From: Patescibacteria group bacterium
Lineage (GTDB): Bacteria > Patescibacteriota > Minisyncoccia > Phycocordibacterales > Phycocordibacteraceae
Assembly: GCA_019752595.1 (NCBI GenBank)
Contig: JAIELV010000001.1
Span: 442,551 to 489,208 of the forward strand
DNA: 46,658 bases
Direction of reading: 5' to 3'
The translations under genes were made by a program, and so were the position numbers. Shown one piece after another: positions 30,956 to 36,622 of this stretch (within the stretch, counting starts at the first letter, position 1; every line of letters starts with the position of its first letter). The notes under the pieces were generated by a model. The model was not told the origin of the DNA. It did no database searches and was given only the letters and a program-made list of their open reading frames with translations.

Positions 30956-32083
30956 TTAAGCTTCAAATTGAAGCTCCTTGCCAGACATCTCTATCCCGCG
31001 ACTCACAAGGGTAATACCTGGCTCTTTGGTAATCACGCCCGCAAGTTTTGCTTCCATTCCTTGTGCCTTTGCTTCCGCTAATACTTTGTCAGGATTATCC
31101 GTAATCAAAGCCATGCCCTGCCCCATGTTCCATGTTCCGTATGCGTCGTAGTCCGACACTCCACCCAGACGTTGGCAATACGCCGTAATATCGGGCGGTT
31201 CAAACAAATCAGTCAAACGCGCACCAAGTCCCGTCCTTCGGAGGACGCGTCCCATTTTTTCAGGAATTCCTCCGCCTGTAATATGCGCCACTCCATGAAG
31301 CGGGACAGTACCCTTTGTATCAAACCCTCCGTGAAGCCCGACCACAAAGCGAGAATAAATTATTGACGGAGTCAGTGCGAGTTCACCTAACGTAGAGCCG
31401 TTGTGGGCCAATGTATGCCACGAATCACCATGCGCAGTTTGAAAAATTTTCCGCACCAATGTCCACCCGTTACAACGGAATCCTTTTTCGCGGAGCATCA
31501 CAACCGCATCACCTGCTTTTATTTCATTCCCCGTCAGAATGTTTTCTTTTTTTGCAAACCACACACACGCCGCGCCCCAATGGAACGGGAAATCTCCGTA
31601 TCCGTTTAAGAGCGAACCCATCTGCGCTATTTCCCCGTTAATAATTGCAACGTTTGCTTCTTTTGCCGCCGCAACATAGCCCTCCGCCAACTGTCGTACA
31701 ATCGCGAGCTTCGTATCATCATTCCCCAAGGATTTCACATCAAGCGTCGTTCCCACAAGAACGGGCTCGCCCCCGCGAAGAAGTGCGTCGTCGCAAACCA
31801 TGGCAAACAAATCGTATGCAATGGTGTTGTAGGTGCCCACACGCTCCGCGATTTCAACTTTTGTTCCCGCAGTATCAAAACCGACTGAGAAATACGTGTC
31901 TTTCGGCAAGTTCCCCGCCGCCACCATTTTGAGTGCGGCAAAATCATCAAACGGAGCGATTACTTCTCCTATTTTCCCTTTTCTGTTTTCAAAACTTTTT
32001 TTTGAAGCTTCGTGCATCAGGCGCGACGCTTCTGCTTCAATGTCTACATTGACTCCAGTTTTCGCGTATGCGTTGTCACTCAT
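30956..32083 (-). CDS. purM: Phosphoribosylformylglycinamidine cyclo-ligase (AIR synthase)
   Basis: [53 protein letters not shown]. Confidence 0.93.
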
Positions 32084-32655
32084 ACCAATCCGCTGTCTGA
32101 AAGATATTTGCTAAAACCTTTTTCTTCAATCGCGCTCGCCTTTTTCAAAACATCCTCTTCCATCTTCTGTTTATACGCTGCAACTTTCGCGCGAAGCGCA
32201 TCGTCACCTGCACCAAGTATCTGCAAAGCCAAAAGTCCTGCGTTTTTTGCACCGTTTATTGCAACAGTCGCAACAGGAACACCAAACGGCATTTGTGCTA
32301 TTGAAAAAAGAGAATCAATCCCGCCTGCGGTTTTTGTTGCGACAGGTACACCAATCACGGGAAGTGGTGTGAGAGCTGCAGTCATTCCTGGGAGATGCGC
32401 GGCACCCCCTGCACCTGCAATAATCACGCGAATTCCTTTCGCTTCAGCGCCTTTGGCATATTCATATAAACGCTCAGGTGTTCGATGTGCGGAAACGACC
32501 GTCACTTCGGAAGCAACACCAAATTCTTCGAGGAGTTTCGCGGCGTCCTGCATTATGGGAAGGTCAGAATCCGACCCCATAATAATGCCGACGAGCGCAG
32601 GAGAGGAGGTACTGAGGTCACCAGATCCGAATGTGCCGACCTTATTCTCCGCCAT
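32080..32655 (-). CDS. purE: N5-CAIR mutase
   Basis: [66 protein letters not shown]. Confidence 0.98.
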
Positions 32656-32658
32656 ATT

Positions 32659-33768
32659 TTAGATAATAACACGCGACAGTAAAAGAAGCGCGTTTTTCTC
32701 TGCCTCTTCTTGTGTGTCGGCAACGGCGTTTATGTGGCCCATTTTTCTCCCGACACGTACGTCTTTTTTCTCGTAGAGGTGCAGAGCAACGCCAGATATT
32801 CCTTCTACTTGAACACCCACAGATTCGCCGTTTCGCGTCCCCAAAATATTTGCCATAACTCCCGCTCTCACTGTCATGGCGACGTCACCCAAAGACATAC
32901 CCATCACTGCGCGAACGTGATTTTCAAATTGAGAAGTAGCACATGCGTCCTGCGTTATGTGTCCTGAATTGTGAACGCGTGGCGCTATTTCGTTCACCAA
33001 AATTTCTCCACCACTTAAAAACATTTCAATACTGATAACCCCTACCCCATGAAGTGCGCCAAGCACCTTCTCAGCAATCGCTTCAGCTTTCTGACGTGCG
33101 GGTTCTGGTACTAACGCGGGCATGCGCACCAACACACAAATGTGATTTTCATGGACCGTCTCAACCGTCGGGTAGGTTCGAATTTCTCCTTCCTCTGAGC
33201 GAACAGCAACAACCGCTAGTTCTTTCTCAAACGGAACAAATTTTTCCGCATACAAGTGCCCCCCACCTAGTTTTTCAAACGCCGTCGCTATATCTTCAGA
33301 AGAGTGAACGGTGGAATTTCCTTTCCCGTCATACCCCCCGCTTCGCGCCTTAAGCACAAACGGATATCCAAGTACCTGCCCTGCTTGTTCTGCGTCTTCT
33401 TTCGAATTCACTTCAAGAAAAGGTGCGACGGCAATACCGTTTTCTGTAAGAAACTTTTTCTGTGCAAGCTTGTCGCGAATAATGGAGAGAGTGTGCGGCG
33501 ATGGATGGACGGGGTATCCGCTTTCAGAAAGCTCGGAGAGTGCCTCGGCGTTTGCCGACTCTATTTCAAAAGTCAAAACGTCTGCCTCTTTCGCAAAAGC
33601 TTTCACTGTTTCGTAGTCCTTAAAATCACCAACCACCTGCCGCGCAAACGCAGATGCGGGGCATCCAGGCGTCGGATCAAGCACGACAGTTTCTACGCCT
33701 ATTTTTTGAGCCGCCTCAGCCATCATCCGTCCCAACTGCCCACCGCCCACTATTCCTAAAGTCTTCAT
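32659..33768 (-). CDS. purK: N5-CAIR synthetase (ATP-grasp)
   Basis: LGIVGGGQLGRMMAEAAQKIGV, EIAPRVHNSGHITQDACATSQFENHVRAV. Confidence 0.98.
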   Translation of the reverse strand: MKTLGIVGGGQLGRMMAEAAQKIGVETVVLDPTPGCPASAFARQVVGDFKDYETVKAFAKEADVLTFEIESANAEALSELSESGYPVHPSPHTLSIIRDKLAQKKFLTENGIAVAPFLEVNSKEDAEQAGQVLGYPFVLKARSGGYDGKGNSTVHSSEDIATAFEKLGGGHLYAEKFVPFEKELAVVAVRSEEGEIRTYPTVETVHENHICVLVRMPALVPEPARQKAEAIAEKVLGALHGVGVISIEMFLSGGEILVNEIAPRVHNSGHITQDACATSQFENHVRAVMGMSLGDVAMTVRAGVMANILGTRNGESVGVQVEGISGVALHLYEKKDVRVGRKMGHINAVADTQEEAEKNALLLLSRVII

Positions 33769-33804: not shown

Positions 33805-34737
33805 CTAATCACTACCTCGAAGCGTATTCTTTAACTTACAAACGCACGCTGGTCCAAACCCACAGCAGAGCGACACGACTTCAAACCCGTGTTTTTCAGC
33901 AATCCGTGCAAACTCCTCCACTGTTACAGGCTCTCGATGATGATGCACTGTTCCGTTTTCAATGTCCGTAAGGTGGTCCATATTCTCAATATCGATACTA
34001 TTCGCGTACTCAAACCGTAATGCTCCTGGCTCTCTTCTGGCTGCTATCTCAATACCTGTTAATGATCCGCAATTGGCACCGAGGACAACCTTAGTGGTCA
34101 ATTTTTCTGGATTCTCCCTCACATACTCAATAAGTTCTGTGAGTGTAGTTTTGTCGCCTGCCAAATGCCCATGCGAATCAAACGCCAGCCCAATATCAAT
34201 TTCTTCTACTCGAGCTTCATGTGCCGCCCGCCACGCACTTGTGAATCGGTCTTTCGTGGTAGTAGCTTCCACAATTGGACGATAGCCATATTCTTTGGCT
34301 GCAGAAATCTGCGGCGCTATATGCTCAGAAATACTCACTACCGTTTCATCTGGTGAAGGTCTATACCCATCTGGACCAAAGCCGACAGAAAACAAACGAA
34401 CAAGTGCTTCTGGTTTTTTTGTTCCATAGCATTTCTCGACAGCTTCCATATATCGCGAGTGTAGGGCCGCAACGACTTCTTTGTACTTACTCGGATTTTC
34501 GGGCAACAATCGCTTCACGGGATACGTAGGCAAAGAAACACGTCCATCTGGTCCGCAAATTTTTAAATACTCCTCTATTAACCCCGAAATGACCGCACCA
34601 CTTTGCTCGCGAACTTCCGCGTCGTTGCTGATAAGTTCTGTGGGGTCGAGCGTATCTGGCGTAACACCTCTGCGTTTGGCCCATTCAATGGTGTACGCTC
34701 CTGACTGAATTATTGGTCTGTACGTTTTTTCTGACAT
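33805..34737 (-). CDS. Homocysteine S-methyltransferase domain-like protein
   Basis: VVLGANCGSLTGIEIA and VVSLCCGFGPACV resemble the GxNC and GGCCG zinc-ligand motifs; IVEATTTKDRFTSAWRAA region. Confidence 0.72.
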   Translation of the reverse strand: MSEKTYRPIIQSGAYTIEWAKRRGVTPDTLDPTELISNDAEVREQSGAVISGLIEEYLKICGPDGRVSLPTYPVKRLLPENPSKYKEVVAALHSRYMEAVEKCYGTKKPEALVRLFSVGFGPDGYRPSPDETVVSISEHIAPQISAAKEYGYRPIVEATTTKDRFTSAWRAAHEARVEEIDIGLAFDSHGHLAGDKTTLTELIEYVRENPEKLTTKVVLGANCGSLTGIEIAARREPGALRFEYANSIDIENMDHLTDIENGTVHHHREPVTVEEFARIAEKHGFEVVSLCCGFGPACVCKLKNTLRGSD

Positions 34738-34751
34738 GTGAATTTAAAATA

Positions 34752-34794
34752 AAAGCCCTCGTCTTTGGCGGGGCTGGTTTTGAGTGAGGGCTTT
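34752..34794 (-). terminator. Attenuator terminator in the leader of the homocysteine S-methyltransferase-like gene
   Basis: Minus: AAAGCCCTC-N25-GAGGGCTTT-TATTTT, ending 14 nt upstream of the ATG. Confidence 0.65.
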
Positions 34795-34797
34795 GTT

Positions 34798-34884
34798 CTA
34801 AATTTTTTGTGAAGACAAAACCAGCCGCCGCATTCTCATGCCCATCATCATTGCCATCATTACTCCTGCGGCTACGTAAATCAT
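34798..34884 (-). CDS. Methionine-rich leader peptide, 28 aa with 8 Met
   Basis: Minus ATG ATT TAC GTA GCC GCA GGA GTA ATG ATG GCA ATG ATG ATG GGC ATG AGA ATG CGG CGG CTG GTT TTG TCT TCA CAA AAA ATT TAG. Confidence 0.7.
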   Translation of the reverse strand: MIYVAAGVMMAMMMGMRMRRLVLSSQKI

Positions 34885-34964
34885 CTCTTTCCAAAGTACG
34901 CCTCAAAGCCTGTTCGGTCAAGGTAAGCCTCGCAACATTATTTATACTCTTTACTACTCTCCTA

Positions 34965-34998
34965 ATATACCCCTAATTCGCACGAATTAGGGGTATAT
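34965..34998. repeat. Near-perfect 34-bp palindrome/hairpin
   Basis: ATATACCCCTAATTCG-CA-CGAATTAGGGGTATAT, 16-bp perfect arms. Confidence 0.75.
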
Positions 34999-35039: not shown

Positions 35040-35240
35040 ATGTCGGACTCTGGTCAGGATAGAGAAAGGCGCTTCCCTACGGGAGGTGAAATATATCTGA
35101 ACGAAATCAGCAAGTGGGGCCGTGACGACATTCTGAAATTCGTGGAAGCATTGCTGTCTGCCTCTACCAAAAAACGCCCCGAAAATGGAGGCGACGTCAC
35201 AGCTCAAGTAGAAGTAGACGAAACTACCCGAAATACGTAA
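35040..35240 (+). CDS. Small hypothetical protein (66 aa), probably leaderless
   Basis: MSDSGQDRERRFPTGGEIYLNEISKWGRDDILKFVEALLSASTKKRPEN...; strong upstream promoter; 3' end overlaps purQ 3' end convergently. Confidence 0.55.
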   Translation: MSDSGQDRERRFPTGGEIYLNEISKWGRDDILKFVEALLSASTKKRPENGGDVTAQVEVDETTRNT

Positions 35241-36006
35241 TTCCGTTTTTGAAAATCTGAAGTCCGTCAGAATCAAACGGCAATTTCTTCCCCGCGCGCT
35301 TTGCGCGCTCTTTTTGTAGAGGCCAATCAGGGCGCTGTACCGAAAACAGGTTTCTGTCAGGATGTGGCATCATACCGAACACTCGTCCGTCGTACGCCAA
35401 AACACCTGCAATATTTTCCGTCGCCCCATTCGGGTTTGCGGGCAAATTCTGATATGTGGATGTCTCGCCTTTGTAGTAGCGGAACGCCACCTGTTTATTT
35501 TTCTTCAAATCATCCAAAACTTTTTTCGGCGCAATGTACCTCCCTTCTCCGTGCGCAATAGGCACTGAAAGTGTTTCGATTCCTGAAAGCCACGGGCTTT
35601 TGCCTTCTGCTTTCAAATCCACCCAGCGGTCGATGTAACGGTTTGATTCGTTAAAGGTCACAGCACCAGGCAATATGCCGATTTGCGAAAGTATCTGGAA
35701 ACCGTTACAGATGCCGATTACCAATTTCCCGCTCTCAATGAATTGCATCAAAGGCTTCCATAAGTGGTTCCGCATGCGGTTTCCGTAGGCCTTTCCGCTT
35801 CCCGTGTCGTCGCCGTAGGCAAAACCACCCGGGAACGCGAGGATATCGTAATCGCTCATTTTTTTCATCCCGTCAATCACATCGTTGATGTGCACGATGT
35901 CCGCCTTCCCGCCCGCGCGCTCAAATGCGTGTGCGGTTTCTTCTTCGCAGTTAAGTCCGTAGCCGGAGAAAACCAAAACCTTAATGTTTTTTTTATTTCT
36001 TTTCAT
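35224..36006 (-). CDS. purQ: Phosphoribosylformylglycinamidine synthase glutaminase subunit
   Basis: KVLVFSGYGLNCEEETAHAFERAGG, LAFPGGFAYGDDTGSG, LVIGICNGFQILSQIGILPG; internal start chosen. Confidence 0.93.
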   Translation of the reverse strand: MKRNKKNIKVLVFSGYGLNCEEETAHAFERAGGKADIVHINDVIDGMKKMSDYDILAFPGGFAYGDDTGSGKAYGNRMRNHLWKPLMQFIESGKLVIGICNGFQILSQIGILPGAVTFNESNRYIDRWVDLKAEGKSPWLSGIETLSVPIAHGEGRYIAPKKVLDDLKKNKQVAFRYYKGETSTYQNLPANPNGATENIAGVLAYDGRVFGMMPHPDRNLFSVQRPDWPLQKERAKRAGKKLPFDSDGLQIFKNGITYFG

Positions 36007-36622
36007 TTTTGTTTGCATAAAGACAGAGCCACGAAAACGGTTTTCCATCTGTCTGTGCTTTCAAAACTTCGCGCGTATCAGTCGCCTGTACCTTGAAACC
36101 TCCCGCCTCTATGAGATTCCGCAACTCCTGCTCTTCCCAAAAACTGAAGAACCGCTCGCCCGCTTTGTCGGACACCATGCGTTCGCCTTCCCCCTTTTTG
36201 ACCGACACGAAAAGCGCGCCGTCTCCGGTGAGTAGGCGGGCAAATTCGGCAATGGCTTTCGGCGCGTCTGCCTTCGTAATATTGAGAAGAGACGCACAGG
36301 CCCACAGTCCGTCATAGCTCGCGTCAGGAAGTCCTGTTGCGGTCATATCTGCTTCGTAAAAGGACACCTCGGGAAAACGTTTTTTTACACTCTCTATCGC
36401 GGCGTGAGAATAATCCAAACCCTCAACCTTTGCTCCGCGCTCTAAAAATTGCTTAATATCGCGCCCCGATCCGCCGCATCCGATGTCCACAATTTTTGGT
36501 TCTGCGACTGTTATGTAGGAGAGGAATTTTTCTAATTCCGCAGTCCACACATTCCCGAGGCTTTTCTCCTTGTGCCACTCGTTGCCCGTTTCGTAATTTT
36601 GTTTTGTGACCTGATAGCTCAT
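35993..36622 (-). CDS. Class I SAM-dependent methyltransferase
   Basis: KIVDIGCGGSGRDIKQFLERGAKVEGLDYSHAAIESVKKRF. Confidence 0.88.
   Translation of the reverse strand: MSYQVTKQNYETGNEWHKEKSLGNVWTAELEKFLSYITVAEPKIVDIGCGGSGRDIKQFLERGAKVEGLDYSHAAIESVKKRFPEVSFYEADMTATGLPDASYDGLWACASLLNITKADAPKAIAEFARLLTGDGALFVSVKKGEGERMVSDKAGERFFSFWEEQELRNLIEAGGFKVQATDTREVLKAQTDGKPFSWLCLYANKNEKK

Follow-up and report, generated by a model that had tools for sequence, protein, structure and literature searches.

The trp, his, thr, phe, leu and ilv leaders of the enterobacteria share a simple arrangement, in which a run of control codons inside a short open reading frame (ORF) is followed by competing antiterminator and terminator helices before the regulated gene. 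Methionine (Met) genes in other bacteria are usually under the control of SAM riboswitches, T-boxes or repressors, and the SAM (S-box) riboswitches and T-boxes likewise place a premature terminator before Met or SAM genes. In Streptomyces lividans, however, metL, a Met-containing leader upstream of metNIQ, has been proposed to regulate it (PMC8079986). With the leaders described below metL shares a leaderless transcript and a Met leader before a Met gene, but the available portion of that report gives it two internal Met in 29 residues and no typical terminator and offers no comparative support for it (PMC8079986), whereas the present leaders have 5-7 internal Met and both a terminator and an antiterminator. 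In a survey of the Actinobacteria, Met operons were not preceded by any conserved RNA element (PMC1262725). The leaderless leader peptides of Actinobacteria and the hisS/hisZ leaders of Firmicutes are examples of attenuation with near-leaderless ORFs outside the Proteobacteria, but Met as control codon together with a complete terminator switch is not described in these sources (PMC1262725, PMC8079986, PMC2965389). For Patescibacteria, a literature search that lacked most subscription papers returned no account of attenuation by a leader peptide, nor did the literature searched contain a complete Met leader-peptide switch with a terminator and cross-species support.

The region 34752-34884 of the DNA analysed here (46,658 nt in all, hereafter the window) is probably a ribosome-mediated transcription attenuator with Met control codons, as a first-pass annotation of the sequence had proposed; the letters and coordinates given in that annotation were all correct to the base when re-checked. 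The best reading is that the element works in the manner of the trp, his and thr leaders and that its novelty lies in the use of Met control codons with a complete terminator switch. It differs from the enterobacterial leaders in control codon, sequence, gene set and lineage, and also in geometry, since in the leaders of this genus 3-7 nt separate stop codon and terminator arm, and the terminator loop is 24-25 nt long. It differs from riboswitches and T-boxes in that a ribosome translating a peptide ORF would read the signal; a SAM riboswitch and a T-box were both rejected, the region matching no riboswitch or T-box family of Rfam. The Rfam family Thr_leader (RF00506) gives a weak alignment over the whole element, and membership was rejected because the score of 21.4 bits is below the gathering threshold of 55.

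The leader ORF (34798..34884, minus strand) encodes MIYVAAGVMMAMMMGMRMRRLVLSSQKI, and translation confirmed that 8 of its 28 codons are Met, as originally annotated at 34884..34798. Codons 9-18 (MMAMMMGMRM; 34831..34860, minus strand) form the control run. When all ATG ORFs of 20-60 codons in the roughly 891 kb scanned of the genome (G000; 903 kb, probably of Patescibacteria/CPR to judge by its size and gene content) were ranked by Met fraction, this ORF came first of 4,851. Against the background of 1.9% Met in ORFs of this size, at least seven internal Met in 27 codons has a probability of 5e-7 per ORF, so that 0.0026 such ORFs are expected. A scan of the genome for an amino-acid run combined with a terminator-like hairpin gave 142 cases, mostly of Leu, Ser or Arg, among which this leader is the sole Met case. 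The leader DNA is present in a single copy within the genome.

Three further strands of the same RNA, in addition to the terminator, make up the switch, all on the minus strand. Strand 1 (AGCCGC; 34868..34873) is able to pair with the GCGGCU of strand 2 (34816..34831), which is the 5' half of the antiterminator and doubles as the RRLVL codons, while strand 3 (34768..34782), the 3' half of the antiterminator, lies inside the terminator loop. The terminator stem consists of a 5' arm, AAAGCCCTC (34786..34794), and a 3' arm, GAGGGCTTT (34752..34760), followed by the U-tract TATTTT (34746..34751). The antiterminator core GGCTGGTTTTG (34826..34816) pairs with CAAAACCAGCC (34782..34772) without a mismatch, and the helix is carried to 34831/34768 by four extra pairs past one bulged C, which agrees with the 11 perfect pairs plus four first read at 34831..34816 and 34782..34768. 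The downstream ATG at 34737 is, again as first read, 14 nt beyond the end of the terminator 3' arm. That the antiterminator and the terminator exclude each other had also been predicted, and is borne out by the pairing and by the folding models presented below. The duplex between strand 2 and the terminator 5' half has an energy of -27.2 kcal/mol in G000, a value equalled by 11/4000 shuffles of one side and 30/4000 of the other; across the six Met leaders considered in this study the antiterminator duplex was equalled by 0 to 90 of 4000 one-side shuffles. Pairing of strand 1 with strand 2 in G000 was not above that of shuffled sequences (1281/4000), and this protecting pairing was no better than chance in G066 and G160 as well, and modest in G005, G007 and G009. 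The total folding energy of the leader region is ordinary (z = -1.5 and +0.3). The signal is thus the switch and not the overall stability of the fold.

A candidate -35 box, TTGACC (34916..34921, minus strand), belongs to a motif common to the genus leaders, and a candidate -10 box, TACTTT (34893..34898, minus strand), lies 8 nt before the leader ATG, although the latter scored below threshold in a promoter-consensus scan. The arrangement TTGAC-N16/17-TAnnnT, with its end 6-8 nt from the start codon, is found at all four genus Met leaders and at a threonine (Thr) leader discussed below, compared with 7/5744 short ORFs (0.1%) and 10/1086 long ORFs in G000; the motif was spotted post hoc, but five of five leaders are far from the background all the same. 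On this evidence the leader probably has its own promoter and a nearly leaderless mRNA, and the unit would be transcribed independently of purQ.

The first gene behind the switch (33805..34737, minus strand) encodes a divergent homocysteine-S-methyltransferase (HMT)-like protein. It is followed after 36 nt by purK (32659..33768, minus strand), with which it is probably co-transcribed, and then by a purE-like ORF (32080..32655, minus strand) named by sequence resemblance. The upstream neighbour of the leader, here and in the three other leader-bearing genomes of the genus, is purQ (35224..36048, minus strand), so that the order along the strand is purL (also named by resemblance), a SAM-dependent methyltransferase gene, purQ, leader, HMT-like gene, purK and more ORFs of the purine cluster. 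The original label of homocysteine S-methyltransferase stands as a weak resemblance, the NCBIfam model NF005718 (betaine-homocysteine S-methyltransferase) giving 24.4 bits, but this is far below the curated cut-off of 338, and the Pfam model S-methyl_trans had no match in the protein. The HMT assignment is a weak one. The protein contains NC and CCGFGP stretches, which we take to resemble zinc-binding cysteine motifs, and single-sequence structure prediction gave no usable model (pLDDT of 40). No convincing orthologue was found in 99 relatives, about 400 genomes of the order and 384 of the class, which gave one 52-residue match (E = 7e-4) with an internal stop, or in genome, viral and plasmid collections, and the gene is therefore unusable as a comparative anchor. 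Between purQ and the leader there is a perfect 15-bp palindrome (34965..34998); with its T-run (ATTTTTTG) on the plus strand, it has the look of a terminator for that strand or of a 3' end of purQ produced by processing. Plus-strand RNA of 34740..34998 has a strong fold (z = -4.1), to which this palindrome contributes, and a 66-aa ORF with no Pfam match (35040..35240, plus strand) overlaps the end of purQ.

Homologous leaders in the genus were located by a degenerate Met-run pattern together with an antiterminator pattern. Among the ten genomes of the genus set, purQ is present in six, and four of these (G000, G005, G007 and G009) carry the leader directly after it. The peptides of G005 (MILYFVATSGVMMVMMFSMRRLVLRTVHI), G009 (MVLYFVATSAMLMAMMFSMRRLVLQTIHI) and G007 (MHSAQNMMMAMMMSMKRLVLRTP) share with that of G000 the pattern MMxMMxxM..RLVL and a common antiterminator and terminator. 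In the alignment of the four leaders, 20 core pairs, nine of the terminator and 11 of the antiterminator, are kept in all, and three one-sided substitutions within the core helices preserve pairing. The extension of the antiterminator, read by hand, pairs GCGG with CCGC around a bulged C in G000, GAA with UUC in G005 and G009, and AA with UU in G007; as it differs on each side between species, both sides appear to have changed together. The Met-rich ORF is thus conserved in the comparison of related leaders that the first-pass annotation had proposed, but formal covariation, with no more than four sequences that differ little, was not significant, and at this level it is conservation, not covariation, that carries the comparative case. 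That annotation had let its interpretation stand or fall with the retention of Met enrichment and helices in related leaders, and three relatives do retain the Met runs and both helices. The purQ neighbourhoods of G069, G130, G203, G209 and G006 contain no leader, and none was found with purK as the anchor; of the two remaining purQ-bearing genomes of the genus, G006 has purQ directly before purE, with neither leader nor cargo gene, and G008 has a hemerythrin-like ORF behind purQ. Most of the degenerate Met-run matches inspected were rejected because they fell in acidic repeats or in alternative frames of longer genes, and the exact antiterminator pattern had 46 matches in viral contigs, by eye all in unrelated sequences.

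The gene behind the leader is not the same in each species. In G007 the leader precedes the gene for a 321-aa protein that matches Pfam SAM_HAT_C (27.9 bits against a gathering threshold of 25.5), with a purE-like ORF 31 nt past it. In G005 and G009 the leader precedes the gene for a 63-aa zinc-ribbon-like CxxCxGxG protein (L098:7035-7226, plus strand, and L160:7634-7825, minus strand, respectively), which has no known Met role and is weakly like anti-TRAP (E = 0.003 and 0.28) or DnaJ. Hydrolysis of SAM gives adenosine and Met, and methylation of homocysteine makes Met. Two of the three kinds of cargo, SAM_HAT and HMT-like, would therefore be expected to yield Met. Since the leader is constant while the next gene differs, the switch seems to stay in place while the gene is exchanged. 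The single HMT gene originally given as the target thus has to be replaced by a varying cargo: judged from the sequences compared, the conserved element is the switch rather than the gene behind it, and its context within the genus is a purine gene cluster.

A covariance model built from the four genus leaders was used to search 222 genomes of the order. By their scores alone, matches outside the genus did not reach significance (per-genome E = 0.004 and 0.026), but two of them, in G066 and G160, have the full layout; the remaining weak matches were not accepted. The leader of G066, a member of another family, encodes MTFGRNSNMMMEMMT, which is unrelated in sequence to the genus leaders, and is followed by a GGAGGGG/CCCCUCC antiterminator, a CCCC/GGGG-TTTTTT terminator and, directly behind, a SAM_HAT_C gene. 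The SAM_HAT_C protein (32.7 bits against the same gathering threshold of 25.5) is 37% identical to that of G007, and the model of the SAM_HAT N-terminal domain has no match in either. Two leaders unrelated to each other are thus associated with genes that, by their domain matches, belong to the SAM-hydrolase family. Eight further genomes, examined because they are related to G066, contained no SAM_HAT gene, which makes it improbable that a chance match would fall right before one. The leader of G160, from a third family (L190:4439-4569, minus strand), encodes MQNKSNEMMSMMQTLRRKLVFVLAF and has a long antiterminator and a perfect terminator; it is a candidate Met attenuator. The 149-aa ORF behind it has no Pfam match, and the codon run suggests that its function is related to Met. 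The weight of G066 and G160 lies in their layout and, for G066, in the gene behind. With these two leaders of common layout from other families and the three from the genus, the attenuator interpretation is supported.

Met, SAM, one-carbon units and purines are metabolically linked, and a possible though doubtful variant of the explanation preferred here, and one compatible with it, is that a Met-triggered attenuator is aimed mainly at purine synthesis and not at Met supply. The site between purQ and purE is conserved while the next gene varies across the four genomes, and the distances of 36 nt from the HMT-like gene to purK and 31 nt from the SAM_HAT gene of G007 to the purE-like ORF fit such a target. 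However, more than 200 nt separate the small ORF from purE in G005, the purQ-purE pair of G006 manages without leader or cargo, and the G066 leader follows an rpsR-like gene and has behind it on that strand only a SAM_HAT gene.

To model switching, equilibrium folding was carried out on the six Met leaders with a 31-nt ribosome footprint masked codon by codon. In all six the antiterminator was favoured while the ribosome waited at the early Met codons, three of them at the least. With the ribosome beyond the Met run the terminator reached about 0.9 or more in G000, G007, G066 and G160, and the last Met was the precise point of the flip from antiterminator to terminator in G066 and G160. After the run the terminator was partial in G005 and G009, 0.4-0.8 at best and <0.2 at several codons further on. 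The terminator value dips in the genus leaders where the ribosome touches the terminator arm and, because the stop codon is so close to that arm, a ribosome resting there blocks termination. The first-pass annotation had raised this difficulty, which is real in the genus leaders, where a parked ribosome covers the arm, but does not arise in the distant G066 and G160. The level of basal read-through is known to depend on ribosome release at the stop codon (PMC1183508). The naked RNA of G005 and G007 prefers the antiterminator at equilibrium, so that in these two the ground state would depend on the order of folding.

The sequence of events that we envisage for the Met attenuator begins with RNA polymerase starting a few bases before the leader ATG, closely followed by a ribosome that would translate the leader. 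Were charged Met-tRNA scarce, the ribosome would wait at the first Met codons and cover strand 1, so that strand 2 could form a helix with strand 3; the terminator's 5' arm would be trapped inside that helix, and transcription would run on into the HMT-like gene and then purK and what follows it. Were Met plentiful, the ribosome would move over strand 2, the terminator stem would form and transcription would, if termination is efficient, end before the gene. As relatives keep the switch before a different, predicted Met-releasing enzyme, a response to Met in this direction, turning the genes on when Met is scarce, is the probable one.

Attenuators that sense drugs or slow translation also exist. 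An unlikely alternative is therefore that the attenuator is coupled to translation but does not sense Met, its setting being determined by the nascent peptide (M-R/K-R-L-V-L) or by slow translation caused, for instance, by a ribosome-binding drug or low initiation. RRLVL is indeed the most conserved part of the peptide, and G005 and G009 have no Met gene behind the leader. However, RRLVL is encoded by strand 2 of the antiterminator, so that pairing of the RNA explains its conservation; moreover, the G066 leader has a Met run and no RLVL, and two of the leaders precede genes of the predicted SAM-hydrolase family. That an ordinary intercistronic terminator merely happens to lie beside an untranslated ATG-rich stretch, a coincidence that the evidence from a single genome and the ordinary total folding energy would allow, is most improbable given a Met density with P about 5e-7 per ORF, a peptide, a promoter and a pair of helices that are conserved across four genomes, and the independent Met leader before a SAM-hydrolase relative in G066.

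A second leader in the same genome, near position 56,890 of C1 (minus strand; L029:16892-16780, minus strand), encodes VSYRSNTTTTTTTTSEEAVIVA, with a run of eight Thr codons. It continues with GGAGGAGG, to which the 5' half of the terminator that comes next is able to pair, and behind it are a 254-aa ORF and then thrS (NCBIfam thrS, E = 2e-195). In the folding model the antiterminator formed at one or two Thr positions only, which leaves this candidate threonine attenuator suggestive, as is its fit with a use of leader-peptide attenuation by the lineage.

Whether the Met leaders represent a lineage-wide class, by which small-genome bacteria, probably Patescibacteria, control Met recycling in partial coupling to purine synthesis, is in our view an evenly balanced question. 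If they do, SAM hydrolase and HMT-like enzymes would form an attenuator-controlled route of Met recycling in which hydrolysis of SAM is a regulated source of Met, and reduced genomes would watch the charging of Met-tRNA by ribosome stalling instead of by SAM riboswitches or T-boxes. Classical attenuation would then operate in host-dependent bacteria with small genomes, whose gene regulation is little known, and the codon run upstream would predict the function of orphan genes.
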